A DNA stretch of 41,126 nucleotides, from the IMG/VR virus record IMGVR_UViG_3300013088_000002, positions 1 to 41,126 of that record; one strand, 5' to 3'. The notes under the pieces are model-generated. The model had not been told where the DNA came from. It saw only the letters and a list, made by a program, of their open reading frames with translations, and ran no database searches. The position numbers were made by a program, and so were the translations under genes. This DNA comes from a virus. Numbering within the stretch: position 1 is the stretch's first letter; every line of letters starts with the position of its first letter. Positions 25,289-39,348 of the stretch are shown piece after piece.

Positions 25289-25300
25289 CAGAACTCCGGT

Positions 25301-25909: not shown

Positions 25910-25924
25910 TTCAACCTTCTTTCT

Positions 25925-26512
25925 TTACGTCTGCCATGTCTTGCCTCTTGGCTGGTTGACGTTCCAGCCAACAGGACTGGTCATCCATCTCTGAGGTTTG
26001 GAGTAGTAGTCAACACCAAGGTAAGGATTGTCCACATAGGTAAACGGGGCTTGATACCCAGGTGGCTGATAAACAGGTGGCACCGGGTAGGGACTTGGAG
26101 GACTTGGCGGCAACGGAGGATATGGACTTGGAGGTACCGGCGGGTAAGGATCAGGACCCCACTTCGGTGGCTTAGGAGGCTTGTAAGGGTTATTAGGATC
26201 AGGACCCCACTTCGGTGGCTTAGGAGGCTTGTAAGGGTTATTAGGATCAGGACCCCACTTCGGTGGCTTAGGAGGCTTGGGAGGGTTATCAGGATCAGGA
26301 CCCCACTTATCAGGAGGCTTAGGAGGCTTGGGAGGGTTATCAGGATCAGGACCCCATTTATCAGGAGGCTGAGGAGGCTTAGGAGGGTTATCAGGATCAG
26401 GACCCCATTTATCAGGAGGCAGGTCAGGAGGGTTAGGATCCCATTTTTCAGGTTGAACTCCCAACTTTTTCAAAAAAGCAATTATCTGCATATTTTCTCG
26501 TTGTGATAACAT
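25925..26512 (-). CDS. Proline-rich KWGPDP-repeat protein
   Basis: The protein is 195 residues, using the ATG at 26512 with GGAGTC upstream. After about 20 residues (MLSQRENMQIIAFLKKLGV) comes a roughly 105-residue stretch of six or seven repeats of the type 'KWGPDPDNPPKPPKPP', then a Pro/Tyr/Ser section and a C-terminal tag (VDYYSKPQRWMTSPVGWNVN). Expected to be extended (polyproline helix) and disordered. The tag is shared with the protein at 25301-25909. It may be a spacer or a structural ruler in the virion, or bind a partner by repeated KWG motifs. I know of no described family that fits. Confidence 0.65.
   Translation of the reverse strand: MLSQRENMQIIAFLKKLGVQPEKWDPNPPDLPPDKWGPDPDNPPKPPQPPDKWGPDPDNPPKPPKPPDKWGPDPDNPPKPPKPPKWGPDPNNPYKPPKPPKWGPDPNNPYKPPKPPKWGPDPYPPVPPSPYPPLPPSPPSPYPVPPVYQPPGYQAPFTYVDNPYLGVDYYSKPQRWMTSPVGWNVNQPRGKTWQT
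26148..26440 (-). repeat. 45-51-bp tandem repeats coding the KWGPDP units
   Basis: About six copies, each starting GGATCAGGACCCCA(C/T)TT on the plus strand, spaced 48 or 51 bp. The first three are nearly identical at DNA level (48-bp unit), which shows recent duplication. Copy number is likely to vary between related phages. Confidence 0.85.
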
Positions 26513-26513
26513 G

Positions 26514-26810
26514 TTAGACTCCTTGCTGATTGGTATTGCTAGCATTGACACCAGCAGTGCCATTGATACGATCGCGAATAACCTTGATTTGTGCAGTTGC
26601 TTTGGCATGGATACCTAGATTCTGCGCTTGCATCGCTACTATTTCCGGTTGATGAGCATCCCATTGGGCCAGAATGCCTTTATCTACCACAGCCTGAGCG
26701 CGTCGTAGGTCCGGCGCGTTCCACTCCGCGGCAAAGTCCTGGATGGCGAGTTGAATATCCATCATCGCGCCCAAGGCTGCGGTTTTGGCATCCCTGATCG
26801 TGTTGGCCAT
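26514..26810 (-). CDS. Small helical head protein, 98 aa
   Basis: The start overlaps the previous stop (TAATG). The sequence is helical: RDAKTAALGAMMDIQLAIQDFAAEWN, LRRAQAVVDKGILAQWD, and HAKATAQIKVIRDRING, with a disordered tail. No recognised family. It is tightly coupled with the 81-aa gene and lies between the portal and the proline-rich gene, so it is probably a virion or assembly component. Confidence 0.55.
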   Translation of the reverse strand: MANTIRDAKTAALGAMMDIQLAIQDFAAEWNAPDLRRAQAVVDKGILAQWDAHQPEIVAMQAQNLGIHAKATAQIKVIRDRINGTAGVNASNTNQQGV

Positions 26811-27055
26811 TACATACCACCGGGGTTACCTGGCATCGGGCCGGCAGGTCCGGCGGGTGGACGCGCACCTGCTCCTGCTCCAGCGCTTTGCTGAGCAATT
26901 GCGCTCAATCGCTGGATCAGTTGCATCAAGAAGTCCTGGTCATTCAATAGTGCCCGTTTGATTAGCGCCATTGGATCACCGCTACCTGCACCAGGTTGTG
27001 CAGGATTGGCAGGAGCCGGACTTGGTTGGTTGGGATTCGCCCATCTTTGGTTCAT
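26810..27055 (-). CDS. Small Pro/Ala/Gly-rich protein, 81 aa
   Basis: AAGGAG lies 7 nt before ATG. The protein has a disordered Pro/Ala/Asn N terminus, a helix DPMALIKRALLNDQDFLMQLIQRLSAIAQQ, and a Gly/Pro/Ala C terminus ending PGNPGGM. Low-complexity composition like the neighbouring head genes. Function unknown; it may be an assembly chaperone or portal partner. Confidence 0.5.
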   Translation of the reverse strand: MNQRWANPNQPSPAPANPAQPGAGSGDPMALIKRALLNDQDFLMQLIQRLSAIAQQSAGAGAGARPPAGPAGPMPGNPGGM

Positions 27056-27068
27056 AGTGTTCTCCTTA

Positions 27069-28814
27069 TTATTGTCCGCCAGGTATCATCCCAGACGGAA
27101 TAGGTTGGGTAGGTGTCATTGGTTGTTCGGGTCCTTGTGGTTGGGTTTGCTGCATCTGTGCAATTTGTTCAGGTGTCGAACCCTGTGGTTGCCCTTGTCC
27201 GGGCTGAGCAGGCTGCATCAGTCCCATCTTCTGCGCCATTTGCTGCATGAAGATGGGGAATAATACTTTGGCTGCCATGTCTGCCATCTGCTCACGCCAA
27301 ATCTTCGACTGCTCATTATCTGACTGGCCGATGTTCAAGATGTTGTCGCGCGTCCACTCTTTACTTGCCAACCCGGAACTAACTATTGTTGCGCCTGTGC
27401 TAGCCTGTTGCATCTTGTCTTGCGGCAGATTAACATCCACAGAAACCTTGAAGTTTAGGACTTCCGGCATCTGTGCTGGGTCAAACTTGACGGCAGCACC
27501 CGTCGTTGTAGAGATTGTTGCCTTGCCATCAATCTTCCACCAGTCAAAGGCGATACTCATTGCATCAGCGAATAGTGCTGCCATCCCTTCTTGGATGGGG
27601 GTCAACGGCAAGCGCCCTGCTTGATGTAGAAGGGATAACGCCGAGAACGTTGGGTTTCCTGTAAGCTGCTGACCAAGAGTCTGGTCATATATCGTGCTTT
27701 CGTTCATCAGATCATCGTATAACTGGTACTGTTGCACCAACCCGGGATTGATGATCTCTTTGGCAAATGGAACCAGACTGTTTCCTACCGGCATTTCAAC
27801 GACACCGCCTATTGTGGAATGATTGATTTCAATAGTGTCGTCGGGGTTTACTTTGTTGTGCACGAATTGCGCGTTCATTAGGGCCGCGGCATTGGTCGCT
27901 GTGATGGTCAGGAACAGGTTTTGCCGCTGCCATACACCGGATACGATAACAGGATACAGGAATGGCAGAATTGCACGTTCAGGCTGCTTGTAAACGCTCG
28001 ACCCTTCGGGCGAGTAGTAAGCGACCGGGATTGACGATAGTCCGTGTGGTCCAGCCAGGATTGGTACTTTATCGCCTCCCGTCCACACATAGACATTCGC
28101 CCGGTCATAGAAGACATTGAGTTCAACATTCTCGTATGATTTGCGCCCAGCCAATACCCGTTCTGCGTCCCCGCCATAGGCGGCGAGCACATCAGCCACG
28201 GTGACTTTAACCTTCTGGTAATGCGCTTCGAGGCCGGAGCGAGAGCGGCGAACGTAACAGGTGGTCGCTTCCAATGGCTCGAACAAGTACGGCGTCTGTT
28301 TCCTGATCTCCTCGTGATGTTTGACATTCGCATCGAATAATGGCTTCTTGTCTTTATCCTTATTCTCTTTCGCTGCGGTCTGGGCAACTTCCAGCATATC
28401 CTTTGTGCTAATTACCCGCATGTGCATTTCACCGTAGAGAGTAGCAGAGTGGGCCATGTCTCGCTCGGCGACAATCTTTTGAACCGCGTTACTGCCAGCC
28501 CACATCGCATTAGCGGCCTTCTCACATAGGGAAGACTTGTCTACTGCGTCCAGGTTATTCTTTTCTGCCGGCACATTGAACGTTGGTGTGGTTGCTGATA
28601 ACAATCTGGTCGCGCCTCGCACCTTGTTATGCGGGTCGGGGGAAATGGTCAACTTCACTTCTCCACTCGGTTTATCCGTCCAGTCCATGAAGAAGGCTTC
28701 TTCACATTTGACTTGGTTCTCTCGAAGAGTTGAATAGGAAGTTACCATCTCCTTCGCGGTGGTTTGGGCGAGTTCAAAGCCTACAAGGTCAAGGTCGGTT
28801 TTCTTCGTTGGCAT
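27069..28814 (-). CDS. Portal protein
   Basis: The protein is 581 residues, starting MPTKKTDLDLVGFEL (GGAGC before ATG). Early residues 'MVTSYSTLRENQVKCEEAFFMDW' and 'ATRLLSATTPTFNVPAEKNN' look like a portal clip and wing. A hydrophobic segment in 'PERAILPFLYPVIVSGVWQRQNLFLTITATN' and the helical 'SALSLLHQAGRLPLTPIQEGMAALFADAMSIAFDWWK' follow. The C-terminal 50 residues are Gln/Pro-rich. The position directly downstream of the large terminase is the normal one. The family match is by order and general features rather than a signature. Confidence 0.7.
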   Translation of the reverse strand: MPTKKTDLDLVGFELAQTTAKEMVTSYSTLRENQVKCEEAFFMDWTDKPSGEVKLTISPDPHNKVRGATRLLSATTPTFNVPAEKNNLDAVDKSSLCEKAANAMWAGSNAVQKIVAERDMAHSATLYGEMHMRVISTKDMLEVAQTAAKENKDKDKKPLFDANVKHHEEIRKQTPYLFEPLEATTCYVRRSRSGLEAHYQKVKVTVADVLAAYGGDAERVLAGRKSYENVELNVFYDRANVYVWTGGDKVPILAGPHGLSSIPVAYYSPEGSSVYKQPERAILPFLYPVIVSGVWQRQNLFLTITATNAAALMNAQFVHNKVNPDDTIEINHSTIGGVVEMPVGNSLVPFAKEIINPGLVQQYQLYDDLMNESTIYDQTLGQQLTGNPTFSALSLLHQAGRLPLTPIQEGMAALFADAMSIAFDWWKIDGKATISTTTGAAVKFDPAQMPEVLNFKVSVDVNLPQDKMQQASTGATIVSSGLASKEWTRDNILNIGQSDNEQSKIWREQMADMAAKVLFPIFMQQMAQKMGLMQPAQPGQGQPQGSTPEQIAQMQQTQPQGPEQPMTPTQPIPSGMIPGGQ

Positions 28815-28824
28815 GTTGTTGCTC

Positions 28825-30234
28825 CTACAAATTCTTATATTGCGACGGTAGGTGTTGCTTCGGCTGCTGCGGTTTCGGTGCGGCAATACTGCTTTCGTTA
28901 GTAAACCCATACCTATCAGCATCAAAGGCATGGTCTTCCTGACCATCTGCTACATCCTCTGTGCCTTCTTTCAGGGCTAAACTTTCCATTTGCTCAATCA
29001 GGTGTGGACAACTCTCGAATACCTGCCAGCCCGGTTCTCCGTCGCCAATGTCGGCCAGCGCGTTGTGCACCTTGCGTATGCCCGACTTGCGATCATTATC
29101 CGCCTTCGTCAGCGGTACACCAGCCTTCTGATACTCATCCGCAGTCGAAAACACTATCCCATCTTGATTCTTTCTTGTCCACATGGACGGATCGGCATAG
29201 GTGATATTGATATGTTCGGTGGGTGGCGTATTGGCTTTGATGAGTTCGGCTTGTTGTTTATCAGTCAACCCGGCCACATACACTTCCCGATAGGTGTATT
29301 TGTGCTGCGTATCTGGATTCTTTGTTTTCCACGTGCAGCAGAACGGAGAAGCATAGCCCCAGTCCACTGATCTCCACTTCGGCCAATGGAGTGGAATGTC
29401 AAAACAATCTTCCAGCTTTACAATGTGCCGCTCATGGTTCCAGTCCGGGAAGGCCATGCCTGCGAACGCATCCCAATCGCCGTCACGCCAGGCTTTACGA
29501 AGCGGTCCAGTTAGTCCATCCAGCCATGCTTGGTACTCTGGATTGATGAATGGGTTGGTAATGTGCGTCACATCAAAAAACTTAGTGGTTCGCTCATTAC
29601 CCTTGCGGGAAGGTTCGACAAACATCTTCTTGAACCACATCAGCCCAGGGCCGTCTGCGTTCGTTGTCAGATATATCCGTGGCCGCCAATGAGTCTTGCT
29701 GGTACGAAGGGAGCCACGAATGGCATCTTTCTTCTTCTCCGAGAGCTGGGTGCACTCCTCTGCCAAGATACCGTCGTACTCAATGCCCAGATATTTATCA
29801 ATGTCACGCTCGTCTTTGAATCCGCCGAGCAGGATACGGCTGCCATTCTCAAACTCAATCTCATTGGCAGTCTGCTTGTGCGGTACATAAGCACACAGCC
29901 GGCGCACCAAGTCTTCCAAACTCTCCTGCGCTGTTTTCATCACCTTGCGCAAGAACAAGAATTTCAGCCCGTCTACCCGTTGACAATCATCCAGGGCGGC
30001 TTGTGCCATTGCTGCATGGCTCTTACCAGGTCCACGCTTACCACCCAGGGCAATCCATTCTGGACCGCCATAACGATCAGCAGAACGAGCCGCGGCGTGG
30101 AAGGGCAGGAAGCCGGGGATAGGCACATAGCCAGTCATCAAGAAGCGCTCGGCTTGGTCGCGTGGACAACCAGCCTCTTTTGCCGCCATCACCAATCGTT
30201 CTACGCGCTCATCAGCCACCAGAACTGTTGCCAT
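28825..30234 (-). CDS. terL: Terminase large subunit
   Basis: The protein is 469 residues. The ATG at 30234 (AAGG upstream) overlaps the end of terS by 23 nt. The ATPase part shows Walker A GGKRGPGKS at 64-72, adenine-motif-like residues before it, and Walker B at 153-160 (YDGILAEE). The coupling motif is 'IYLTTNADGPG'. The RNase-H-like nuclease has Asp291 in SVDWGYA, Asp348 in ITYADPS and Asp438 in DHAFDADRYG. It cuts and pumps DNA into the prohead through the portal encoded next door. It is complete and of normal size. Confidence 0.93.
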   Translation of the reverse strand: MATVLVADERVERLVMAAKEAGCPRDQAERFLMTGYVPIPGFLPFHAAARSADRYGGPEWIALGGKRGPGKSHAAMAQAALDDCQRVDGLKFLFLRKVMKTAQESLEDLVRRLCAYVPHKQTANEIEFENGSRILLGGFKDERDIDKYLGIEYDGILAEECTQLSEKKKDAIRGSLRTSKTHWRPRIYLTTNADGPGLMWFKKMFVEPSRKGNERTTKFFDVTHITNPFINPEYQAWLDGLTGPLRKAWRDGDWDAFAGMAFPDWNHERHIVKLEDCFDIPLHWPKWRSVDWGYASPFCCTWKTKNPDTQHKYTYREVYVAGLTDKQQAELIKANTPPTEHINITYADPSMWTRKNQDGIVFSTADEYQKAGVPLTKADNDRKSGIRKVHNALADIGDGEPGWQVFESCPHLIEQMESLALKEGTEDVADGQEDHAFDADRYGFTNESSIAAPKPQQPKQHLPSQYKNL

Positions 30235-30760
30235 AAGCCTTATCCAGTACAGTTTGAAGTCCTTCAATGGTCAAGTGAACGTTGACAGGAGGAGTTTCGT
30301 CGGTAAATAGTTTATGATGGCTGCCAATCAGTTTCAAAGCAGCCTGCGAGTCGTACAATTCAACTTCGACATACTCGTCTTCCCATTCCTCGGCCATATC
30401 TCCGCGACCTTCGATGCGCCTAGTGCGCTTGCTCTTGATTTTCTTGATCAGGTTCAGGTGCTTCATGGCTTCGGGCTGCGAGAAGTCGAAGTACACAAAT
30501 CCCTGCTCGGTTACTTTGATAAAAGGTTGAACGCTGGAACGAGCTTGATCAGCAAGAAGCAACAGCACTTCATCGGCAGACATTTTCATTTCAGCCAAAC
30601 GTTCCTGAATAAGCGCTTGAATGTTGTCCTTTGTTAGCAACTTACAGGCAATTGAACGGGCAGAGACTTCGGAATAGCCGGCATTCTTCGCCGCCTCGGT
30701 TGCGTTGAAGCAGCGGAGATATGCTTCTACAAATGCCTTTTGCTTATTTCGTAATGCCAT
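30212..30760 (-). CDS. terS: Terminase small subunit
   Basis: The protein is 182 residues. The N-terminal helix-turn-helix NKQKAFVEAYLRCFNATEAAKNAGYS and following 'ARSIACKLLTKDNIQALIQERLAE' are the signature of the Terminase_2 family. The rest includes 'YVEVELYDSQAALKLIGSHHKLF'. It recognises the packaging start site and works with TerL, whose gene overlaps its end. Confidence 0.88.
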   Translation of the reverse strand: MALRNKQKAFVEAYLRCFNATEAAKNAGYSEVSARSIACKLLTKDNIQALIQERLAEMKMSADEVLLLLADQARSSVQPFIKVTEQGFVYFDFSQPEAMKHLNLIKKIKSKRTRRIEGRGDMAEEWEDEYVEVELYDSQAALKLIGSHHKLFTDETPPVNVHLTIEGLQTVLDKAYGNSSGG

Positions 30761-30995
30761 TCTCGGTTCCTGTTCGAGACGACCATTCTTTAGGCCGCTC
30801 TATTTGTTGTTCTTGCTTCGGTTCTTCCACTTCTTCAACCGTGACTTTCAGTTTTCGTCCAGTCATCCCTGCCAGTCGTATCCCATCAGGAGAGACCTTC
30901 AGAGGAATGTTCAACTTTACTTGCAGATTGTCACCTGTCCCGTCTACCATGATCGCTGACTGTATTGGCGGAAGGTAGGCATAGAACTCAATCAT
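30744..30995 (-). CDS. Hypothetical protein, 83 aa, upstream of terS
   Basis: Starts right after the endolysin stop (TAG-ATG). The N-terminal half is a beta-type sequence (MIEFYAYLPPIQSAIMVDG..., LQVKLNIPLKVSPDG). The C-terminal half is charged and probably disordered (VEEVEEPKQEQQIERPKEW). It overlaps terS by 17 nt. No family recognised; similar small genes often sit before terS in phages. Confidence 0.55.
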   Translation of the reverse strand: MIEFYAYLPPIQSAIMVDGTGDNLQVKLNIPLKVSPDGIRLAGMTGRKLKVTVEEVEEPKQEQQIERPKEWSSRTGTENGITK

Positions 30996-31868
30996 CTATA
31001 CTGGCTCCAGCCAGAGCATACGCACCCAGCCGGCGGGTTTTTCGATATACGCCCACTTCTCCTTGTATGCGGCGACGATCATCCCAATCGTTACCTCCGT
31101 TCCTTTTGTGAGCGAATCAAGCTGCCTGAACATATCACCAGCGCCCGCAAACACTTTGAGTGTTCCAGCGGTCACTTTATACTTCCCCGTGACTGGTGCA
31201 GGTGGTGAAATTGGCACCGGTAGCGGGGGCACGCTTGCAAACGATCGCAATTCGTCCACCGTCCCGTTGAACCAGTTGTGGTCTACTTCCTTGCTTTGGC
31301 ATCCATAAGCCATTCCATCTGCTTTCGCCTTATCCTGCCAGAATGTCCAACGGGTCCAGGGTTTCGGCACCCCGGTCCCGCCACTGCGGAGTTTTACATA
31401 CCATTCCGGGGCATACCAAGCCAGCCAGAATGGGAAGTGCACCCAACCCAAGTTCAGGTTTCCCCATTGATTCCAGTAATAGAATCCGCTATACGGCATC
31501 GGTATGCGCCCGGTTGCTTTTTCGACGTATTTCAGGAAGTTCCAGACTTTCGCGCTCACGTCCACGGCCTTCATCCCGGCAAATGGCTCCATTTCCAGAT
31601 CAAGGACCGGAGGAAGCTCGCCCCAATCGCCGTTCATGGTTGCCACAAATAACTTTGCCTGCTCTATCTCGCTCCAGCCCCAATCAAGGAAATGGTAGGC
31701 ACCGCGCGGAAGAATGCCCTTCGCGTTCCGCCAATTTTCTGCGAAGCGCGGATCGGCAGACCATTGGCTAGCTTTGGCGTACATAAACGACGCGCCACTA
31801 GCGAAGGCCTTGGAATAATCTACTAATCCTTCCCACTTGCTGACGTCTATCCCTTGCGCTCTTGGCAT
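30996..31868 (-). CDS. Endolysin: GH25 lysozyme with C-terminal SH3-like domain
   Basis: The protein is 290 residues from the ATG at 31868 (AAAGGG upstream). The GH25 (Cellosyl/N,O-diacetylmuramidase) pattern is clear: GIDVSKWEG with Asp8, ASFMYAKASQW, PRGAYHFLDWG, and the catalytic pair in PVLDLEME (Asp90, Glu92). A 'WLAWYAPEW' strand and 'WTRWTFWQDK' follow. A Pro-rich linker at about 213-228 leads to a 60-residue SH3-like domain (KYKVTAGTLKVFAGAGD...WAYIEKPAGWVRMLWLEPV) that probably binds cell wall. No signal peptide, so it needs the holin. It cleaves the peptidoglycan glycan chain. Confidence 0.9.
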   Translation of the reverse strand: MPRAQGIDVSKWEGLVDYSKAFASGASFMYAKASQWSADPRFAENWRNAKGILPRGAYHFLDWGWSEIEQAKLFVATMNGDWGELPPVLDLEMEPFAGMKAVDVSAKVWNFLKYVEKATGRIPMPYSGFYYWNQWGNLNLGWVHFPFWLAWYAPEWYVKLRSGGTGVPKPWTRWTFWQDKAKADGMAYGCQSKEVDHNWFNGTVDELRSFASVPPLPVPISPPAPVTGKYKVTAGTLKVFAGAGDMFRQLDSLTKGTEVTIGMIVAAYKEKWAYIEKPAGWVRMLWLEPV

Positions 31869-31882
31869 GTGGTTTCCCTTTC

Positions 31883-32131
31883 CTAAAACGGCCACACGAA
31901 TGTGTGCGTCAACATTGACAATAAAATCAGCAGGATCGCCGCCCCCAAAACGCCCCCGACCCACTGCACAAGCCAAATCGTGCTGCCCCACTTCCGCATC
32001 GGCTTTACCGTATCATATATTTCCACGATCGCTGATAACATGAGACGATTGTAAACTTTCTGCGGAATGGTTACACGCTCATCTCCCGCCATCGTCCGCA
32101 ATTCGTCTATGACGCTGTGCCCGTTTGCCAT
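31883..32131 (-). CDS. Small membrane protein in the lysis cassette
   Basis: The protein is 82 residues, with GGAGTAGG upstream. A soluble charged N-terminal part (DELRTMAGDERVTIPQKVYNRLML) is followed by one C-terminal membrane helix, about 53-78 (IWLVQWVGGVLGAAILLILLSMLTH). The layout, cytoplasmic domain first and one C-terminal anchor, and the place between holin and endolysin suggest an accessory lysis or second holin protein. It matches no named family I can be sure of. Confidence 0.6.
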   Translation of the reverse strand: MANGHSVIDELRTMAGDERVTIPQKVYNRLMLSAIVEIYDTVKPMRKWGSTIWLVQWVGGVLGAAILLILLSMLTHTFVWPF

Positions 32132-32137
32132 TTCGGC

Positions 32138-32554
32138 CTACTCCTGCGCTGGTGTACCGAATTGTTCCAGCACCGCTTTCTCAACGGCAGCGGCAATCAG
32201 GGCAAGGTCAATGCCCTTAATACTGTGAGCCTCCAGCCATTGCGAAGCCGACTCAACCGCATATTGCTTTGCTTCATCCCGCAAAGTTTTTCCTGCGGAC
32301 GTGATGAGTTGCAGGTATGCCGGGTCTTTCTCCGCATGGATTTTCACCTGCTCGGCAGCCTGCACAGCAAACCTGGCGGCTTCATTGAGCAGTTCCCCCA
32401 CCGTCGGGTAGAGTGACTCAATGAGTTGGAACTTCGCGGATGCAAACGACCAGAACAAACGAGCGCCGGCCACAACCAGCGAGATCAGGGCGGTCACCAG
32501 CAATGGGATAAGGATTTTCAGTGTTTCGTTGAGTATTACATTCCATTCGATCAT
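32138..32554 (-). CDS. Holin (LLH-type)
   Basis: The protein is 138 residues. The ATG at 32554 has AAAAGGAGAG upstream. The N-terminal membrane helix NETLKILIPLLVTALISLVVAGARLFW is followed by a long amphipathic region: 'EAARFAVQAAEQVKIHAEKDPAYLQL', 'KTLRDEAKQYAVESASQWLEAHSIKGID', 'LALIAAAVEKAVLEQF'. This matches the LLH-superfamily holin layout (one membrane segment plus a charged AA-rich helix). It opens the membrane for the endolysin. It is the first gene after the promoter-leader-terminator unit at 32.6 kb. Confidence 0.75.
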   Translation of the reverse strand: MIEWNVILNETLKILIPLLVTALISLVVAGARLFWSFASAKFQLIESLYPTVGELLNEAARFAVQAAEQVKIHAEKDPAYLQLITSAGKTLRDEAKQYAVESASQWLEAHSIKGIDLALIAAAVEKAVLEQFGTPAQE

Positions 32555-32568
32555 GGGGCTCTCCTTTT

Positions 32569-32600
32569 GAAAAGAAAAAGGACAGGTCTTCGACCTGTCC
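32569..32600 (-). terminator. Intrinsic terminator in the leader of the lysis/packaging operon
   Basis: A perfect 9-bp stem GGACAGGTC/GACCTGTCC with a GAA loop is followed by TTTTTCTTTTC on the minus strand. It begins 33 nt after the -10 of the promoter at 32634-32662 and ends 14 nt before the holin start. By its strength it would stop nearly all transcription from that promoter unless overridden. Confidence 0.85.
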
Positions 32601-32633
32601 AGTTGGCTTACCAATCTTGGGCGTTGTACGTCT

Positions 32634-32662
32634 ATTTTACATCATTTCGTGTCTTTATACAA
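32634..32662 (-). promoter_or_regulatory. Late promoter P1, TTGTAT-N17-TAAAAT
   Basis: The minus-strand -35 TTGTAT (32662-32657) and -10 TAAAAT (32639-32634) are 17 bp apart, preceded by AAATGATG. The -35 overlaps the last codons of the HNH gene. It shares a 15-base core, AAATGATGTAAAATA, and the downstream GCCC at the same distance with the promoter at 15105. Confidence 0.75.
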
Positions 32663-33116
32663 GTTTCGACTCAAAATTTAGTTTTGCAAATTTTCCAAAG
32701 ATACTTCGGGCGGCATTATCGTATGCCCGCGCCGCTTCTTCCGGTGTGGAATAAAGCCCTAGGTGCTTTTGAGAATTGTTTATTCTGATCCGCGCCCGCC
32801 ACTTATTGCAAATCTTATTCACGCCTTTATACCCTGCCAAATTGTCGGTTCTGGTTTTTGAGTTTTGGCGGTTTTCCGCCCTGGTACAGACTCGGAGGTT
32901 CTCTTTCCGGTTATCTAACATGTCGCGATTGACATGGTCGGTTTCCATGCCATCTGGTGTTTGCATCAATTCTCTGTGCATATAGAAGGTTCTTTTTCCC
33001 GAGGCGCGCGCTGCATATCCATAGTAGGTGTAATACCACGTCCATTTGGACAACCATTGATAATCTTCGTCGTCACAGATGGCTACTTTCCCTTGCGAGA
33101 GCGGTATAGTTTTCAT
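32655..33116 (-). CDS. HNH homing endonuclease with AP2 domain (copy 3)
   Basis: The protein is 153 residues from the ATG at 33116 (MKTIPLSQGKVAICDDEDY), with no ribosome site upstream. The HNH core is FYMHRELM, Asp-His at 60-61 (ETDHVNRD), DNRKENLR and AENRQN. The AP2 domain is at about 94-142 (GYKGVNK...KWRARIRI...AARAYDNAARSIFGKF). It sits between the MptE-like gene and the holin promoter. The -10 TATAAT of its own promoter overlaps the upstream stop, so transcription would begin almost at the ATG and the mRNA may be leaderless. Confidence 0.9.
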   Translation of the reverse strand: MKTIPLSQGKVAICDDEDYQWLSKWTWYYTYYGYAARASGKRTFYMHRELMQTPDGMETDHVNRDMLDNRKENLRVCTRAENRQNSKTRTDNLAGYKGVNKICNKWRARIRINNSQKHLGLYSTPEEAARAYDNAARSIFGKFAKLNFESKLV

Positions 33117-33123
33117 GTTGTCT

Positions 33124-33152
33124 ATTATACATCTCTTATTGTCTCGGCACAA
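33124..33152 (-). promoter_or_regulatory. Promoter of the HNH gene, TTGTGC-N17-TATAAT
   Basis: The minus-strand -35 TTGTGC (33152-33147) and perfect -10 TATAAT (33129-33124) are 17 bp apart, with GATG before the -10 as in the two late promoters. Only 7 nt lie between the -10 and the ATG at 33116, so the transcript should begin at or one base from the start codon. Confidence 0.65.
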
Positions 33153-33718
33153 CTGTTCGGCGGGTCTCGGTATCCATACAGCACAGACTCAAATAGATGC
33201 GAGTTTTCCGGCACCACAAACTCAACCCCCATCCCGTTCGCCACGCCCACCCACCAGAACATCGAGTCTCGTTGGTACTGATAATTGCTACCGGTTGCCA
33301 TTTCAATTCCGTACATTTCGATCCGCTTGAACCCTTGGAGTAGCGCGAGAGCGACCATATACGAAGCGGTGCTTGTCCAGAATTTTGTGATTCGCTCTTT
33401 GCCCTTGTAAAGTTTCCTAAAAAACCGCTCGCGAACCTCAGCCAGCGGATACACCACGCAGGCCGGGACATCCTGATACAATCGGTTCATGTAGATCGGG
33501 AACTCATGCGGTTGTTTCAGCCATTCAGAATACGAGCCATCCGGGTCGTGCAAATCCCACAGAGTCGGCTTGTGCATCTCGAATATCGCATCTGCCCGGG
33601 GGATCCGCTTATGGTGCAGCATGTTCAACATGGCCCAAATCTGCACATCGGGATCATCGAACGGAGCCAGCAATTGGTGCAATGCGCATTTGCCTATGAT
33701 AACGACTGTTCGTGGCAT
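33125..33718 (-). CDS. Rossmann-like (MptE/DUF115-type) phage protein
   Basis: The protein is 197 residues, GGAGG before ATG. It begins with a strand-loop TVVIIGKCALHQLLAP, then 'WAMLNMLHHKRIPRADAIFEMHKPTLWD', ending with 'STASYMVALALLQGFKRIEMYGIEMATGSNYQYQRDSMFWWVGVANGMGVEF' and 'SHLFESVLYGY'. This layout, with a conserved Gly-Ile-Glu-Met turn and YQYQR, resembles a common phage family near DUF115/6-hydroxymethylpterin diphosphokinase MptE-like proteins. Substrate unknown. It lies at the boundary of early and late genes; its stop overlaps the -10 of the HNH promoter. Confidence 0.5.
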   Translation of the reverse strand: MPRTVVIIGKCALHQLLAPFDDPDVQIWAMLNMLHHKRIPRADAIFEMHKPTLWDLHDPDGSYSEWLKQPHEFPIYMNRLYQDVPACVVYPLAEVRERFFRKLYKGKERITKFWTSTASYMVALALLQGFKRIEMYGIEMATGSNYQYQRDSMFWWVGVANGMGVEFVVPENSHLFESVLYGYRDPPNSCAETIRDV

Positions 33719-33942
33719 GGTTCCTCCACTCTCTCGCTCTTGGTTATGGTCAAAACAAATATCCTCCCCGCCTGGATTTTTACTGTCACATCACCGAACC
33801 CGACATCCTTGACCGCCTGAACCATCGTCGCCAGCCGGTGCAGCACGTCCAACGGTAGCACGGACAAGACGAATCGCAATTTCTCCTCGTCGTTCGGGGT
33901 ATCAAGTTGGAATGTGCCGTAGGTCGGGCGAGTTTCGCTCAT
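33694..33942 (-). CDS. Hypothetical protein, 82 aa
   Basis: The ATG at 33942 overlaps the upstream stop (ATGA), with AGAGG close before it. The sequence MSETRPTYGTFQLDTPNDEEKLRF is followed by a helix (VLSVLPLDVLHRLATMVQAVKDVGF) and a short strand (VTVKIQAGRIFVLTITKS). The end overlaps the next gene. No family recognised; a small alpha-beta regulatory type protein is possible. Confidence 0.6.
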   Translation of the reverse strand: MSETRPTYGTFQLDTPNDEEKLRFVLSVLPLDVLHRLATMVQAVKDVGFGDVTVKIQAGRIFVLTITKSERVEEPCHEQSLS

Positions 33943-34064
33943 CGTCCTCTCACAATTCGCCAAGCCAGCCGGACCCGGTGCGGTTGCTTCCAGGTCTGCG
34001 CCAACATCAAATTGAATTGTTTGCGGCCGTAACGGCGAAACTTGCGCTCCTGTTTTTCGTTCAT
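33939..34064 (-). CDS. Very basic small protein, 41 aa
   Basis: The ATG at 34064 has GAAGGA 6 nt upstream, and the stop overlaps the next start (ATGA). MNEKQERKFRRYGRKQFN continues to RVRLAWRIVRGR, with 14 Arg/Lys in 41 residues, so nucleic-acid or ribosome binding is plausible. An upstream in-frame extension would overlap the previous gene and lacks a ribosome site. Confidence 0.55.
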   Translation of the reverse strand: MNEKQERKFRRYGRKQFNLMLAQTWKQPHRVRLAWRIVRGR

Positions 34065-34101
34065 GATTTTTCCTTCAGGTTCTTTTCCAGCCATACGGCA
34101 T

Positions 34102-34527
34102 TTACCATTCGCGCCTGTCGTTGGTGACGGCCTGCTGATAATAAGTTTCATCATCCGCTGTCCACCTGCCTGATTCTTTTTCGTGCTCACGGATGATGTC
34201 ATATATTTGCACAAGGTAGGGTTCATCTTCTGCTACTACCACGAAATTTTTTCGCTTGCGAAGCAGTTTTACAGCGCGGGGATGAAATTCCTCCCACGCC
34301 TTCGCCTCGTCCAGCGCGGCGCGGAGATTTATTTTGTCCTCTTTCTGTTGGATAATTACTGCTTTATCCAACACAATTTGTTTTTCCAGTTCCGCAAGTT
34401 CGGCGGCGGCTTGGTCGTACCCACAATTGCATGGATGTTTAGAGTCATCTGATTTCCTTGCGTATCCTGTACAAGAAAAGTGATGTCCAAATTTCATATA
34501 TTTCTCAAGCATTTTTGTGTCACTCAT
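34102..34527 (-). CDS. Hypothetical coiled-coil protein with N-terminal Cys/His cluster, 141 aa
   Basis: GAGAGGCAG precedes the ATG. Residues 14-35 have a possible metal site (HHFSCTGYARKSDDSKHPCNC). Residues 38-75 form a coiled coil (DQAAAELAELEKQIVLDKAVIIQQKEDKINLRAAL). A helical part with 'RAVKLLRKRKNF' and a C-terminal acidic part follow. Proteins of this type are common in phage early operons without known function. Confidence 0.6.
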   Translation of the reverse strand: MSDTKMLEKYMKFGHHFSCTGYARKSDDSKHPCNCGYDQAAAELAELEKQIVLDKAVIIQQKEDKINLRAALDEAKAWEEFHPRAVKLLRKRKNFVVVAEDEPYLVQIYDIIREHEKESGRWTADDETYYQQAVTNDRREW

Positions 34528-34542
34528 TTCTGCCTCTCTCTC

Positions 34543-34884
34543 TTACAACAATTCAGGTTGTTCCTGCCGCGACCGATAGGCAGGATGCCAGATTTGCAGT
34601 GAATAGATCAAGTCGTGCGGGTCACCCAACTCCTTGCGAATGGCTTGCCAGATCACTCCGACAGCAGGTACGTTCGACCAGGTATTTTCCCGCATCACGC
34701 GGGCGATGGCCAGGTCCAGCAATCCCAGGGGCACTGCTTTGAGTTGGTCCCGGTAGATTTTCAGCCGTTCCGGTTCGAGCGGCTTTCCGATTCCGGTCCA
34801 GAGTTGCGCCAGTACAGACATCCATTCGCGCAATTCAAGCTGATACGCTTGTTCGTTGGTCAGAAAAAGCTGAAAATCGGTCAT
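34543..34884 (-). CDS. Possible replicative helicase loader (G39P-like)
   Basis: The protein is 113 residues and its ATG overlaps the previous stop (ATGA). An all-helical sequence: ELREWMSVLAQLWTGIGKPLEPERLKIYRDQLKAVPLGLLDLAIARVMRE..., NVPAVGVIWQAIRKELGDP. The pattern 'Y...L...P...L..A...... ....P.VG.I...' is like small helicase loaders/inhibitors of phages such as SPP1 G39P. It is directly downstream of the DnaD-like and zinc-finger genes, which supports a replication role. The assignment is tentative. Confidence 0.4.
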   Translation of the reverse strand: MTDFQLFLTNEQAYQLELREWMSVLAQLWTGIGKPLEPERLKIYRDQLKAVPLGLLDLAIARVMRENTWSNVPAVGVIWQAIRKELGDPHDLIYSLQIWHPAYRSRQEQPELL

Positions 34885-35078
34885 TTGTGTTCATCCCATT
34901 CGTCATCGGATTCAAATGTTCCGTCTGGGTTGATCACGCGTTTGCCTCGACAATCAGGAAAACGGTTACAGCCCCAGAACGGTTCCCAATCTTTTCCGGG
35001 CGGTGGCCTACGAAGCACCATTTTCGCCCCACAGTCTGGACAATAGGGTTCTGGCTTCGTGCGGATAACTCTTGTCAT
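34881..35078 (-). CDS. Topoisomerase-type C4 zinc-finger protein
   Basis: This 65-residue protein is nearly all one zf-C4 domain of the topoisomerase I C-terminal type: CPDCGAKMVLRRPPPGKDWEPFWGCNRFPDCRG, with four Cys in the correct spacing and the FWGC..FP.C signature. The end is acidic (FESDDEWDEHK). It is expected to bind single-stranded DNA. It overlaps both neighbours by 4 nt in the replication cluster. Confidence 0.8.
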   Translation of the reverse strand: MTRVIRTKPEPYCPDCGAKMVLRRPPPGKDWEPFWGCNRFPDCRGKRVINPDGTFESDDEWDEHK

Positions 35079-35830
35079 TTCGCCAACTCCTCTATCACGC
35101 GCCGGTTGTGTTCGGACACGTCCTCGGGGGAGGACTTGCCACTGGGTGCCTTCGGAGCCTTGAAACCGTCACGCGACCAGCGCTTCAAGATCGCCTCGCA
35201 GTATTTCCACGAGCGGGCATTGCTCGCAACGGCCTCCTGGATGGCAGCACATATCCAAACCGGACCGTAGGTAATTTCTGCGTCTTTCAAGGCATCGGCA
35301 ATCATCGGGGTCAGCACGCCAATATTGTGCTCGTAGACTGTGAATACGTTTTCTGTTTTTCCCCCCGTACCCCTCTCTTCAGAAGATAAAAGACTAGAAG
35401 ATACTATACTAGAAGAGACAATGGCATCGCTACTGTATCCATACCGTACTGATAGGGTATCAACACACCTCCGTTTTAGTTCACAGTCAGGAACATTTCT
35501 CATATCGTCTGCTATACGCTTCCTGATGTGTTCATTCGGGTTATTTTGGACTTGATACTTTGCCATGTTTTTTATCCAGATAACGCCGCTCTCGAAGTCA
35601 TATTCGACTTTGTCCGCTTTGGTGAAGACTTCAATGGCGTCCTGGACGCAATCTCTAGTCAATCCAGTCTCAAATGACACGATCCTGACTGGAATCTCGT
35701 ACAAACCGGTCATAGATGCGCGTTCGTTGCTGAAAAGATAGATGAATAGTAATTTCATTTCTGGATTCAGATTGATGAACCAGTTATCAGATGACCACAT
35801 TTTGCAATGAAGCTGGCGGAAATTAGCCAT
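35075..35830 (-). CDS. DnaD-like replication initiation protein
   Basis: The protein is 251 residues. The N-terminal winged-helix part (MKLLFIYLFSNERASMTGLYEIPVRIVSFETGLTRDCVQDAIEVF) is typical of phage replisome organisers. A Ser-rich linker at about 138-150 follows. The C-terminal DnaD/DnaB_2 domain at 162-223 reads 'VFTVYEHNIGVLTPMIADALKDAEI...VWICAAIQEAVASNARSWKYCEAILKRW'. It should bind the origin and bring in the host helicase. Its ATG overlaps the TAA of the upstream replication-HNH gene (TAATG). Confidence 0.82.
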   Translation of the reverse strand: MANFRQLHCKMWSSDNWFINLNPEMKLLFIYLFSNERASMTGLYEIPVRIVSFETGLTRDCVQDAIEVFTKADKVEYDFESGVIWIKNMAKYQVQNNPNEHIRKRIADDMRNVPDCELKRRCVDTLSVRYGYSSDAIVSSSIVSSSLLSSEERGTGGKTENVFTVYEHNIGVLTPMIADALKDAEITYGPVWICAAIQEAVASNARSWKYCEAILKRWSRDGFKAPKAPSGKSSPEDVSEHNRRVIEELAK

Positions 35831-36339
35831 TATTTGGCCCCCTTTGATGAATTACATTTTCTACAAAGAACTTGAAGGTTATCTAGATTGTCTGTTCCGC
35901 CATTTCTAATTGGGATAATGTGGTCAATAGTCAGATCATCTACGGCCCCGCAATTTTTGCATATTCTCCCGTCCTGGAAGAAAACCCAGGCAGATAAAAC
36001 TCTTCGGACCACACCCCACTCAATCCGCCGATTTTTATATTTGGGATGCAGAGGAAACAAAAATTCCTTTTGTGATTTGATCATCCAACCACTTGGGGTT
36101 TCGTGTGTCAATCCAATTTTAGATAACATTTTCAACGAGTCAAGAAGTTGTTGTTTGTTTGGTTCAAAAACCCTTAATCTCCAAGCCATGTTTTCTATTG
36201 GGGGTAGCAGACCATCGTTCCCGTTCTCACCCGCAAGCAAGAACAGCTCTATGGCACGCCGCCAAAGCCAATCAGGTAACTGCCCCATCTTGGGGTCATT
36301 GAGAATTTCAAGCCAAAGTTTGATCCAGTAACGTTTCAT
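35830..36339 (-). CDS. Replication organiser N-terminal domain fused to HNH endonuclease
   Basis: The protein is 169 residues from the ATG at 36339. Residues 1-90 are a phage replication organiser winged-helix domain: WIKLWLEILNDPKM, LPDWLWRRAIELFLLAGENG, and a 'GLTHETPSGWMI' wing. Residues 91-125 are a linker. Residues 126-169 form a complete HNH: CKNC (127-130), Asp-His 139-140 in TIDHIIPI, GGTDNLDNLQVLCRKCN with Cys159/162, and SSKGAK. The rest of the usual organiser is missing. It is either an in-frame fusion with a mobile endonuclease or a truncated gene with HNH as its new end. The next gene is a second initiator, which may have taken over. Confidence 0.78.
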   Translation of the reverse strand: MKRYWIKLWLEILNDPKMGQLPDWLWRRAIELFLLAGENGNDGLLPPIENMAWRLRVFEPNKQQLLDSLKMLSKIGLTHETPSGWMIKSQKEFLFPLHPKYKNRRIEWGVVRRVLSAWVFFQDGRICKNCGAVDDLTIDHIIPIRNGGTDNLDNLQVLCRKCNSSKGAK

Positions 36340-36506
36340 TCTTTCGCCTTCGCGTATAGCCTCTTGGCGCGTTTGTCCCACCAATACGCGACGTACCCGC
36401 GCCTCTCCGCGATGGCCTCGGCTGTTTTCGAGTCTTTGACTGCGGCAATCATTTTTAGGATACCCAGGATGCGGAGCAGGTCAGCTTTTGTTTGGGCGGG
36501 TTTCAT
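36336..36506 (-). CDS. Small basic protein, 56 aa, duplicated (copy A)
   Basis: The frame MKPAQTKADLLRILGIL, through SKTAEAIAERRGYVAYWWD, to RLYAKAKE overlaps both neighbours by ATGA. It is about 79% identical (44 of 56) to the protein at 37930-38127. Basic, with a helix and a conserved Tyr-Val-Ala-(Y/F)-Trp-Trp-Asp motif. Family and function unknown. DNA-level similarity is high too, which shows a recent duplication in this operon. Confidence 0.7.
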   Translation of the reverse strand: MKPAQTKADLLRILGILKMIAAVKDSKTAEAIAERRGYVAYWWDKRAKRLYAKAKE

Positions 36507-36649
36507 TGTTCCTCTCTTTGCTTGAGTATCGTGACTGTAATTCCCGGCGTGTGTAGGTGGGCACCCCTAAATAGTTCCAGTTCGTTGCGGGAAATAAACC
36601 AGGGTTTGTCACAACGGTCATCCGTCACTATAACCGCGCGCCCATTCAT
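36503..36649 (-). CDS. Small hypothetical protein, 48 aa
   Basis: The frame reads MNGRAVIVTDDRCDKPWFISRN, then GAHLHTPGITVTILKQREEQ, ending in an ATGA overlap with copy A. The start (36649) has a weak ribosome site and lies inside an 18-codon frame (36618-36674, MSELKPNLDEWARGYSDG) that begins on the stop of the 97-aa gene. Coupling through that mini-frame is plausible. It looks like a small beta-rich domain. Function unknown. Confidence 0.5.
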   Translation of the reverse strand: MNGRAVIVTDDRCDKPWFISRNELELFRGAHLHTPGITVTILKQREEQ

Positions 36650-36670
36650 CCAAATTTGGTTTCAGTTCAC

Positions 36671-36964
36671 TCATTTTGCCTCCTTCATCCGCGCAAAAAA
36701 GGCGGAAGGGTCATGGTTTGCGCCAAACCTGCCGTGTTCCACATATTCTTGAAACATGTTTATTGCCTCGTCTAGGTCGGCACGGAGGCGGGCGGCCACT
36801 GCGATATATTTTGCAACCTCCGTAGCCAGAAATTTTTTATCCTCTTTCATCTCCACAAGTTCGGAGGAGGCTTTCTTTGGGTCTATTTCGCCTATGTAAT
36901 ACCATTCACCGTCCTCTTGTTCCCAATTCTTGTTAGCAAAAAATTCATCAAGCGCGCTATTCAT
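36671..36964 (-). CDS. Hypothetical coiled-coil protein, 97 aa
   Basis: AAAGGG precedes the ATG. The N-terminal part is Trp/Glu-rich (FFANKNWEQEDGEWYYIGEID). A long helix follows (ASSELVEMKEDKKFLATEVAKYIAVAARLRADLDEAINMFQEYV). It overlaps the neighbouring membrane-protein stop by 4 nt. No family recognised. Confidence 0.6.
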   Translation of the reverse strand: MNSALDEFFANKNWEQEDGEWYYIGEIDPKKASSELVEMKEDKKFLATEVAKYIAVAARLRADLDEAINMFQEYVEHGRFGANHDPSAFFARMKEAK

Positions 36965-37110
36965 TTTTTTCCCTTTCGGCTATACGCGATCACGACACCA
37001 ATCTGTATCGCCAGACAGGCGGCGATCACAACCAGCGTCGGGACGCTGGTGAGGTCGTTGAGTACGAACCCCAGAGCAAATATTGATATGGCTGCAATTA
37101 GTAAGTTCAT
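36961..37110 (-). CDS. Small two-helix membrane protein, 49 aa
   Basis: The start at 37110 has AAAAGGAG 6 nt upstream. The protein begins MNLLIAAISIFALGFVLNDL, has a short loop, a second helix 'PTLVVIAACLAIQIGVVIAY' and a basic tail SRKGKK. It lies between the radical SAM gene and the coiled-coil gene with an ATGA overlap. Function unknown; a membrane-modifying or exclusion role is possible but unproven. Confidence 0.6.
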   Translation of the reverse strand: MNLLIAAISIFALGFVLNDLTSVPTLVVIAACLAIQIGVVIAYSRKGKK

Positions 37111-37124
37111 TTTGTCTCCTTTTC

Positions 37125-37943
37125 CTATCCACGATAATCTGAGAATGGCACAGTTCGCCATATCCAACGATTCGCCCAACGCGCCAAGTCTCGCAATTTC
37201 TGTTCCGTCCAATCAAAACGGATAACGGGATGTTTTGCGAGGGCATTAAGTGCAATCATCGGCTGAACATGTGGCTCGCAACCCCATTCAATAACCTGCA
37301 AAATGCGCCTATGGCACTCTTCAAATGGTTCGTTTCCGATCAGGACATAAACCCGCTTCGAGGAAGCGGGTTCATCTTTCAAAATCATGGCCATTCGATG
37401 TGCCTCGTTTTCTTCTATGGTTTCATCATATCCAAATCGCCACGCGCCCCGATTGATTGTCTTCCAACGGCGGTAAGTTTCTTTGTCAAATGTTTGCGGC
37501 TCAAATCCACCATTGGCATCCAGAAGTGGAACGTCTGATTTTCGGTACTTCTCAATGATGTGATTTTGGTATTCCACCGGGAGGGCGGAGAGATTGTTGT
37601 CGCACAGAATCGGGCGAGGTATGAAGTCTGGAAGTAGTGTAAATTCCTTGCCCTCCATCTTCGGCACAACGCAAAAGTAACACCCAACCGGACAACCGCG
37701 ACTTGCCATAGTCGCCCGCGGATTGTGGTGAACAAGTGCATCAACTTCGCCGCCAATTCCGGTCACCCTCTCCAGGTATGTGCGGCGAGCAAACAATCCC
37801 GGCCCTCCAGCGCGGACTTTATAGCCCTGCGCGCGCAACCAAATTGCCCGTTGGTAGGCCTCAGGAAGTCGCCACGAGAACGCCACGGAAATAAATGCCA
37901 CGTCATCCTCAATCCATTCGGCCAAACCCTTAGACCATGCCAT
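37125..37943 (-). CDS. Radical SAM enzyme
   Basis: The protein is 272 residues. The [4Fe-4S] motif CxxxCxxC is Cys84, Cys88, Cys91 in ASRGCPVGCYFCVVP. A short N-terminal part (VAFISVAFSWRLPEAYQRAIWLRAQGYKVRAGGPG) resembles the end of the B12-binding-type fold found in B12-dependent radical SAM proteins, but is truncated. 'LCDNNLSALP' and 'GGFEPQTFDKETYRRW' form barrel strands, and the C-terminal region includes 'VYVLIGNEPFEECHRRILQVIEWGCEPH'. It uses S-adenosylmethionine to make a radical; the substrate is unknown. Rare in small phages; it may modify a nucleotide or a host protein. Starts inside the end of the gene upstream. Confidence 0.85.
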   Translation of the reverse strand: MAWSKGLAEWIEDDVAFISVAFSWRLPEAYQRAIWLRAQGYKVRAGGPGLFARRTYLERVTGIGGEVDALVHHNPRATMASRGCPVGCYFCVVPKMEGKEFTLLPDFIPRPILCDNNLSALPVEYQNHIIEKYRKSDVPLLDANGGFEPQTFDKETYRRWKTINRGAWRFGYDETIEENEAHRMAMILKDEPASSKRVYVLIGNEPFEECHRRILQVIEWGCEPHVQPMIALNALAKHPVIRFDWTEQKLRDLARWANRWIWRTVPFSDYRG

Positions 37944-38127
37944 AGGTTACGTCTCCAAGTGCCTTCTCTTTCGCATACAGTCTCTTCGTGCGCCTGTCCC
38001 ACCAGAATGCGACGTAATTTCTGCGTTCCGCTATTGCCTCGGCAGTTTTCGAGTCTTTGACCGCGGCGGTCATTTTCAGGATACCAGGAATGTGGAGCAG
38101 TTCGGTTTTGGTTGCTGCGGGTTTCAT
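37930..38127 (-). CDS. Small basic protein, 65 aa, duplicated (copy B)
   Basis: Starts at 38127 (GAGGGAAG upstream) in an ATGA overlap with the zinc-ribbon gene. MKPAATKTELLHIPGILKM, then SKTAEAIAERRNYVAFWWDR and a nine-residue tail (GDVTYGMV) not in copy A. About 79% identical to copy A at 36336-36506 over 56 residues. It overlaps the radical SAM start by 14 nt. Confidence 0.7.
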   Translation of the reverse strand: MKPAATKTELLHIPGILKMTAAVKDSKTAEAIAERRNYVAFWWDRRTKRLYAKEKALGDVTYGMV

Positions 38128-38315
38128 TCGGCTTCCCTCATCTCGCGTTCTCCCCAATAATCATCGGATGCGACGAACCCACAATATGGACACCTCAGCG
38201 ACCAATCATCAACCCAGGTTTGCGGTTTCTTGTTTTTGGGAACCGAATTTTGACAGATACATTTCGGATTTGTACAAACGTAATATTGCTTTCGTTGACA
38301 TTTAGGGCATTTCAT
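38124..38315 (-). CDS. Zinc-ribbon protein, 63 aa
   Basis: It has CPKC at the N terminus, CTNPKCIC in the middle and CPYCG at 42-46, seven Cys in all, in a small ribbon-like protein. The C terminus is acidic (DDYWGEREMREAE). Its neighbours overlap on both sides by ATGA. Probably binds one or two zinc ions. Substrate unknown. Confidence 0.7.
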   Translation of the reverse strand: MKCPKCQRKQYYVCTNPKCICQNSVPKNKKPQTWVDDWSLRCPYCGFVASDDYWGEREMREAE

Positions 38316-38524
38316 TTCGCCTCCATCATCTCATTTATGCCTCTGCATTCTTTCGAATACATTTTTACAACCGCTTTCACGGCAGCCTTCGCCGTACTGC
38401 CGGTTGCCATCCACCAATCCCCGATAGTCGCCATAAAATGATCGCCCATTTCTGATACGCATACCTCCACCATATCGGCGGCGGGTTTAACCAAGTGCAA
38501 GAAATCTCTTTGTGTTTCATTCAT
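38312..38524 (-). CDS. Hypothetical protein, 70 aa
   Basis: The start at 38524 (MNETQRDFLHLVKPA) has GGAGG upstream and overlaps the nuclease stop (ATGA). It includes 'VEVCVSEMGDHFMATIGDWWMATGSTAKAAVKAVVKMY', an alpha/beta-like sequence with conserved Trp pair, and ends GINEMMEAK. No family recognised. Confidence 0.6.
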   Translation of the reverse strand: MNETQRDFLHLVKPAADMVEVCVSEMGDHFMATIGDWWMATGSTAKAAVKAVVKMYSKECRGINEMMEAK

Positions 38525-38811
38525 TTCGCCTCCAATTCCATTCCAATTAGCGTCGCCGCTTCGGCCAAGGTTTGGATAATGTGATAACACCCGCCTCGAA
38601 TTTCAATGTTGTTTTTTAGTGTTCGTTCACATTCTGTCAATATCAGGCGTTCTTCGGGATTCTTGATTTCCACGATCCACTTTCCACCATTGTTACCAAT
38701 TAACAGCCCGTCGAATCCCTGGCCAGGTTGCATCGGTATCCAGAGGCAACCTATCTGCCGCCAATACTGGACTATTGATTTTTCGTTTTGGTCCCTGCGG
38801 TTTGCCCTCAT
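38521..38811 (-). CDS. VRR-NUC / PD-(D/E)XK nuclease
   Basis: The protein is 96 residues, near the length of stand-alone VRR-NUC proteins. The core motif order is right: 'WRQIGCLWIPMQPGQGFDGLLI' with Asp34, then 'WIVEIKNP' with Glu48-x-Lys50, then 'LILTECERTL' and a final helix. It should cut DNA, perhaps branched (resolvase role). Packed between two small genes with ATGA overlaps. Confidence 0.75.
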   Translation of the reverse strand: MRANRRDQNEKSIVQYWRQIGCLWIPMQPGQGFDGLLIGNNGGKWIVEIKNPEERLILTECERTLKNNIEIRGGCYHIIQTLAEAATLIGMELEAK

Positions 38812-39059
38812 TTCGTCCTTTCAAGCGCGGCGATAGCCACGGCATATTCCGGCATCTCGTCAAGTTGCTCCTGATAATCTGTTTCGTGGTAATCCACAAA
38901 TCCCTGTAGCGCCTCCCTCAATATTCGCACCTGCGCGCGGTAGGTAATATATTCCGCATTGAATCTATCAAGGGAACAATCACAAATAACAGATTCTTTG
39001 TGAGCGCAATCAATAAACATATGCTCTTCAACGGGATGTTTACATCGAATGCAGTTCAT
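38808..39059 (-). CDS. Cys-rich protein, 83 aa
   Basis: The start at 39059 has GGAGG 5 nt upstream, preferred over an in-frame TTG. The N-terminal half has CIRCKH, ECMH-like residues and CDC (MNCIRCKHPVEEHMF..., CAHKESVICDCSLDRF), forming a likely zinc site. The C-terminal half is helical (REALQGFVDYHETDYQEQL...). Early operon. Function unknown. Confidence 0.6.
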   Translation of the reverse strand: MNCIRCKHPVEEHMFIDCAHKESVICDCSLDRFNAEYITYRAQVRILREALQGFVDYHETDYQEQLDEMPEYAVAIAALERTK

Positions 39060-39060
39060 A

Positions 39061-39348
39061 TCATCCTCCAATCAGATATTTGAGAGGGTGCCCCGCCGCC
39101 GGTTCAGCAGAACATTTATGCTCGCTTCGGTTCCATTGCGTTTTCCGTCGAGTGACTGTCCTAGATACGGCAGAGGTAAAACAAATGGGCGGGGCATCAT
39201 TACGGTTTAGTCCTGTGACCAGTCCCTTCCTACCGATTGGACGCTGACAATTACTAGGGGTAGATGCCTTCACATTTTGCGGGTGCACGCCGCCCGCCCA
39301 TCTCCAATCGCGCCGCCGCGCATGGTTCACAAACAACTTAGCTCCCAA
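39061..39348 (-). CDS. Low-confidence open frame, 95 codons
   Basis: A frame ends just before the next start, but begins only at TTG or GTG and has weak ribosome sites. The sequence is basic with many Arg/Asn and little clear secondary structure. A shorter frame in another phase (starting at an ATG near 39205, about 42 codons, ending SNI) looks equally plausible. The segment may contain a real small gene or mostly untranslated DNA. I see no RNA gene in it. Confidence 0.3.
   Translation of the reverse strand: MGAKLFVNHARRRDWRWAGGVHPQNVKASTPSNCQRPIGRKGLVTGLNRNDAPPICFTSAVSRTVTRRKTQWNRSEHKCSAEPAAGHPLKYLIGG

Follow-up and report, generated by a model that had tools for sequence, protein, structure and literature searches.

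Paired promoter-terminator units ahead of two late gene blocks suggest phage-specific antitermination in a phage and its relatives

Both late gene blocks of the uncultured phage analyzed here, a 41,126-base virus record that we refer to at its full length as the window, are headed by a compact unit on the minus strand in which a promoter-like sequence leads through a short leader into a predicted intrinsic terminator (Table 1). Unit 1, the 15.1-kb copy (15133-15040), precedes the head and tail genes and unit 2 (32662-32569), as the original prediction had it, the lysis and packaging genes. Units of the same architecture recur in relatives, where promoter and leader are matched within a phage. 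From these comparisons of sequence, it is likely that both units control late operons, and that one phage-specific antitermination factor opens their terminators; in the window phage and several of its relatives, late expression probably depends on a phage factor that lets polymerase ignore stop signals. That a single switch governs both late blocks, as suggested earlier, is a reasonable idea.

The coordinates bear out the same core in both window units, with 17-nt promoter spacing, GCCC placed 11 nt past the -10 and an identical 11-base tail, TTTTTCTTTTC, at the end of each. The sequence AAATGATG adjoins the -10 in both, AAATGATGTAAAATA and TTTTTCTTTTC each occur exactly twice in the window, and TTGNAT-N17-TAAAAT is found there in units 1 and 2 only. 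Compared base by base from the -35 through GCCC, the units are identical at 34 of 44 bases, an agreement equaled or exceeded by 3 of 200,000 random 44-mer pairs from the same genome and by none of 200,000 AT-rich pairs. The 15-mer that they have in common is weak evidence by itself in 41 kb; the unlikely part is the joint arrangement, and a composite promoter-plus-terminator scan of the window returned exactly 2 matches against 0.03 per shuffle. Two earlier measurements needed adjustment. The terminator stem begins 33 nt after the -10 in unit 2, as stated, and 30 rather than 31 nt after it in unit 1 if a strict Watson-Crick start is used, and the predicted leader RNA, put at ~58 nt, comes to ~53-59 nt on the assumption of a start 7 nt past the -10. 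Between GCCC and the terminator both units also carry a 4-bp mini-hairpin that had been overlooked, in which three of the four pairs are altered on both sides between unit 1 and unit 2. Among the terminator-like sequences listed for positions 24000-41126 the unit 2 terminator ranks top, and a ribosome-binding site and then the holin-like gene follow within 25 nt of the unit. The scaffold-like gene behind unit 1 starts with ATG at 15006, with GGAGG ahead.

Table 1. Positions of the units, of neighboring genes and of related units in other phages
Feature	Position	Strand	Remarks
Unit 1 promoter, TTGCAT-17-TAAAAT	15105-15133	-	AAATGATG abuts -10; -35 TTGCAT 15133-15128, spacer 17 nt, -10 TAAAAT 15110-15105
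Unit 1 leader	15075-15104	-	GCCC 11 nt past -10 at 15093-15090
Unit 1 mini-hairpin, CAAG-CAAA-CTTG	15086-15075	-	within leader
Unit 1 intrinsic terminator (predicted), 9-bp stem and tail TTTTTCTTTTC	15040-15074	-	stem CGGGCATCC-CTAACC-GGATGTCCG at 15074-15051; tail 15050-15040
Scaffold-like protein	14326-15006	-	first late gene behind unit 1; assigned by position and composition only
Major capsid protein	13333-14310	-	next after scaffold-like gene; tail genes after that
Small 89-aa protein	15280-15549	-	upstream of unit 1; G001 homologue 56% identical
Unit 2 -35, TTGTAT	32662-32657	-	overlaps 3' end of HNH endonuclease ORF 32655-33152
Unit 2 spacer AAAGACACGAAATGATG, 17 nt, and -10	32634-32656	-	
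Unit 2 -10, TAAAAT	32639-32634	-	
Unit 2 leader	32601-32633	-	GCCC 11 nt past -10 at 32622-32619
Unit 2 mini-hairpin, TTGG-TAAG-CCAA	32614-32603	-	within leader
Unit 2 intrinsic terminator (predicted), 9-bp stem and tail TTTTTCTTTTC	32569-32600	-	stem GGACAGGTC-GAA-GACCTGTCC at 32600-32580; tail 32579-32569
Holin-like protein	32138-32554	-	first late gene behind unit 2; SD AAAGGAG
Lysis/packaging block	28825-31991	-	behind holin-like gene; then further late genes
Endolysin	30996-31991	-	
Small-terminase-like protein	30212-30760	-	assigned by position and homologue in G001
Terminase large subunit (TerL)	28825-30231	-	
Tyrosine integrase	4406-5362	+	
G001 unit before holin/terminase block	L128:395-497		
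G001 unit before scaffold/capsid	L129:2600-2724		
G008 (IMGVR_UViG_3300018059_000023)			TerL 66%; units or near-counterparts at both sites
G011 (3300035660_000288)			TerL 51%; units or near-counterparts at both sites
G012 (3300028826_000022)			TerL 54%; units or near-counterparts at both sites
G009 (3300037424_003002)			TerL 63%; unit ahead of scaffold
L151, L153, L161, L124, L133, L134, L135, L136			unit ahead of lysis/packaging genes
L162-L164			unit ahead of structural block; one and the same unit, counted once
CYGACAG sites	L198:6654, L147:6031, L199:11553, L205:12239, L155:7723, L134 leader		

The closest relative found, IMGVR_UViG_3300046686_000011 (G001, TerL 76%), gave exactly two units in the composite scan, at positions matching those in the window. 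Further relatives were gathered through TerL and holin alignments; searches with the capsid and portal-like proteins and two scans of genome contigs found no relatives. The relatives have LLH-type holins (PF09682), to which the holin-like protein of the window can be aligned although it is itself below detection with the PF09682 profile. A strict scan of the window and its relatives (451 kb) returned 12 matches, units 1 and 2 being the only ones within the window and every one followed by a ribosome-binding site and an ORF, while ten shuffles gave 0, 0, 0, 0, 0, 0, 0, 0, 0 and 1. Applied to 1.0 Mb of sequence from 119 unrelated viral loci, the same scan gave 2 matches, neither of them leading into a ribosome-binding site and ORF; these loci have a higher AT content than the relatives, and the shuffles therefore make the better control. 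A looser version gave 76 matches in 1.0 Mb of AT-rich background, and for this reason the strict scan alone is used as evidence; a pattern scan of viral contigs with AAATGATGTAAAATA, which gave more than 100 matches, mostly by chance, served as background only.

The -35 elements are poor in places, with none recognizable in G008, which counts against the reading given above. Leaders down to 19 nt occur (L153), and terminator stems are very strong in several units (L133, G001). Nearly every hairpin has a T tract directly behind it, that of the G012 lysis unit being poor. No unit was found ahead of the holin in the LLH-holin phages L123, L125 and L130, another point against that reading; just upstream of the L123 holin lies a small HTH-like protein whose sequence reads like sigma region 4, perhaps another route of late control. 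The original prediction would have lost its force had no relative shared these features, and it survives at the level of architecture, which recurs at the same two gene positions. Its emphasis on particular bases does not generalize: most relatives have other sequences in place of GCCC and the exact AAATGATG core, and TGATG beside the -10 is common to the window and one G001 unit only in part. To judge from the sequences at hand, GCCC and the exact core are features of the window phage.

In each of five two-unit phages, promoter and leader resemble those of the partner unit more than those of other phages' units, and between phages the promoter-spacer and leader sequences mostly differ. The true pairing came first of 120 for the promoters and again for the leaders, while for the terminator stems 21 of 120 pairings equaled or beat it; these counts include G012, where the motif of the first unit served as the query that located the second, and some -10 choices made by eye (G011 unit 1, G008). 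With G012 left out, the matrix again ranks the true pairing first, now of 24. Because promoters and leaders are alike and stems are not, the units are not recent copies of one another, in agreement with the shared design proposed earlier, and the parts kept alike are, as far as sequence can tell, what a factor would read. Both G012 units have GCAAAGGCGGACAGG between the -35 and -10 and CTGACAGAACCG in the leader, both G001 leaders have GCGTAGCTCC-N11-GGAGCG, and the G008 pair matches only weakly (TCTAG, CCGACAG), which tells against a factor specific to each phage. A gapped alignment of ten leaders was uninformative because these elements vary from phage to phage. The motif CYGACAG recurs in G008 (twice), G009, G012 (twice) and L134; it lies a few to ~14 nt upstream of the terminator stem, and its distance from the promoter varies.

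We propose that host RNA polymerase would start at the promoter of a unit and, by default, would stop at the leader terminator after ~55 nt, taking the start to lie 7 nt past the -10. At a late stage of lytic growth, a factor encoded by the phage would recognize the sequence common to both promoters and leaders and load onto the polymerase, which would then ignore the leader terminator and later terminators, and the lysis and packaging genes (unit 2) would come on together with the head and tail genes (unit 1). From the layout and its pairing we infer the working promoter and terminator, termination by default, the factor and its loading at the promoter. To place a strong terminator between a promoter and the gene that it serves is sensible where termination is conditional. 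The phage-specific pairing points to a factor encoded by the phage, since a factor specific to each phage would cause its cis sites to co-vary in pairs. That promoter DNA and leader are both matched is compatible with loading at the promoter, as with Q and AlpA, and with recognition of RNA, as with N and put; we prefer loading at the promoter because AlpA has the same geometry, including two targets. More tentatively, with somewhat less confidence than an even chance would warrant, we suggest that an undescribed antitermination factor of this phage lineage, unrelated to Q, N, AlpA and put, switches two late operons at once through paired promoter and leader elements whose specificity has diverged between phages and which include the leader motif CYGACAG.

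To call this an undescribed control system, as the original prediction tentatively did, is too strong, since lambda Q and AlpA already use a promoter-terminator layout. At lambda pR', as here, a late promoter is followed by an intrinsic terminator (predicted in our case) ahead of the lysis genes, and the default product is a short terminated RNA, again predicted for the present units. Lambdoid phages have one late promoter, whereas there are two units here, and lambda tR' is much farther from its promoter than are the terminators of the present units. Most of what is known of Q-type control comes from enterobacterial phages and from one Pseudomonas system. In the latter organism, AlpA of Pseudomonas aeruginosa acts at two target promoters, one for lysis genes and one for a second operon, recognizes an element between the -35 and -10 of both, and lets RNA polymerase pass terminators that begin 54 nt downstream of the start site in one case and 26 nt in the other (PMC7969949). 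The present units are like this system in their shared -35/-10 element, a candidate recognition element given the pairing of co-regulated promoters (1 of 120), and in a predicted intrinsic terminator before the first gene, as in the AlpA targets, where it begins 26-54 nt after the start, and this likeness needs no sequence relation to Q.

There are also differences from AlpA, in that the element here varies between phages and no AlpA-like protein was identified. The action of Q and AlpA requires that a -10-like element closely follow the start site (PMC9371919). Such a sigma-dependent pause element is absent from unit 1, which has no T in the 20 nt after the -10, and unit 2 has CAAGAT alone, 15-20 nt past the -10, which falls short of one. 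Profiles PF06530 and PF03589, which did detect their targets in control genomes, had no match in the window or in 13 relatives, and PF06323 matched nothing anywhere, its intended positive controls included. No sequence is shared among the Q families (PMC7171158), and a new one would therefore escape detection. We do not claim membership of the Q/AlpA class, because no Q family was detected and the pause element is not present in both window units. The put elements of HK022 resemble the units in that the phage has two of these cis elements, both within leaders that follow a promoter; they act on early operons, however, and their RNAs of ~70 nt with two stem-loops (PMC9378689) are unmatched by the window leaders, which have ~30 nt before the stem and one 4-bp hairpin. 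Rfam gave 0 matches above gathering score in the window, the G001 pieces, L124 and L126.

It is unlikely, but worth weighing, that the leader RNA is itself the antiterminator or a landing site, binding polymerase as put does or binding an N-like protein. The variable distance from the -10 of the G001 leader hairpin (8 and 19 nt) and of CCGACAG in G008 (17 and 27 nt) fits recognition in RNA, as do the recurrence of CYGACAG upstream of terminators and the paired changes in the window mini-hairpins. Against it, promoter spacers are equally well matched within phages, the window leaders have neither the length nor the two stem-loops of put, leaders as short as that of L153 occur, and the Rfam search described above gave no match. 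The ~55-nt structured RNA predicted from each unit might alternatively be the functional product, a short regulatory RNA with read-through being incidental, but this we regard as highly improbable: apart from short motifs the RNA sequences vary between phages, all 12 strict units directly precede a gene with a ribosome-binding site, and an RNA by-product, like that from lambda pR', would fit antitermination too.

Ordinary promoters with leaky terminators that insulate the late genes from upstream transcription would require no dedicated factor, and terminators are known as insulators in mobile elements (PMC11658703). An insulator has no use for a promoter 20-60 nt upstream, several of the stems are very strong, and the phage-specific pairing of promoter and leader would be left without a reason, so that we consider this account quite doubtful. 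The weak -35 in several units (G008; TTGTAT and TTGCAT in the window) and the common spacer sequence would suit a phage initiation activator like Ogr or Mu C, with the hairpins acting as 5' mRNA stabilizers; stabilizers do not need the T tract found behind nearly every hairpin (the G012 lysis unit being the poor case), and an activator of this kind seems very improbable to us. Classical attenuation through pairing of GCCC with GGGC was rejected, being possible in unit 1 only, as unit 2 has no partner.

Returning to antitermination by a phage factor, the known layout occurs here in two copies per phage, with paired sites that are phage-specific and with no recognized Q. This suggests that late promoters are under antitermination more widely than the known factor families would indicate, and the five two-unit phages form a comparative set for finding a factor gene whose specificity changes with the sites. 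The 89-aa protein encoded upstream of unit 1 was considered for this role. Its predicted model (pLDDT 64) has the order helix-strand-helix-helix-strand-strand, which is winged-helix-like, but it was marked down because the model is of low confidence, no significant fold match was obtained and a search of 14 other relatives did not find it; because its gene closes a late block in both the window phage and G001, it is also unlikely to be the first trigger. Zinc-ribbon-like small proteins encoded ahead of the late promoters of G001, L133 and L136 were likewise set aside, as they are not mutually homologous by tblastn, and none of the three has a convincing family match.

Almost all genes of the window phage run leftward, and its tyrosine integrase makes it probably temperate. 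G001 has a 494-aa ORF (L127:3297-4781, minus strand) that reads like a serine recombinase, so that an exchange of the integration module seems to have taken place. The late block includes a single 2,807-aa ORF (16865-25288, minus strand) with a G001 homologue of at least 2,600 aa that runs off the end of L128. A proline-rich protein with repeats of the PPKWGPDPNNPYKPP type is encoded at 25925-26608 (minus strand), and a radical SAM domain protein (phrog_9298) lies in the early region (37125-37943, minus strand). Three related HNH endonuclease-like ORFs of the MKTIPLSQGKVAICDDEDY type, all on the minus strand (32655-33152, 1562-2029 and 7881-8366), look like the spread of a homing-type endonuclease.
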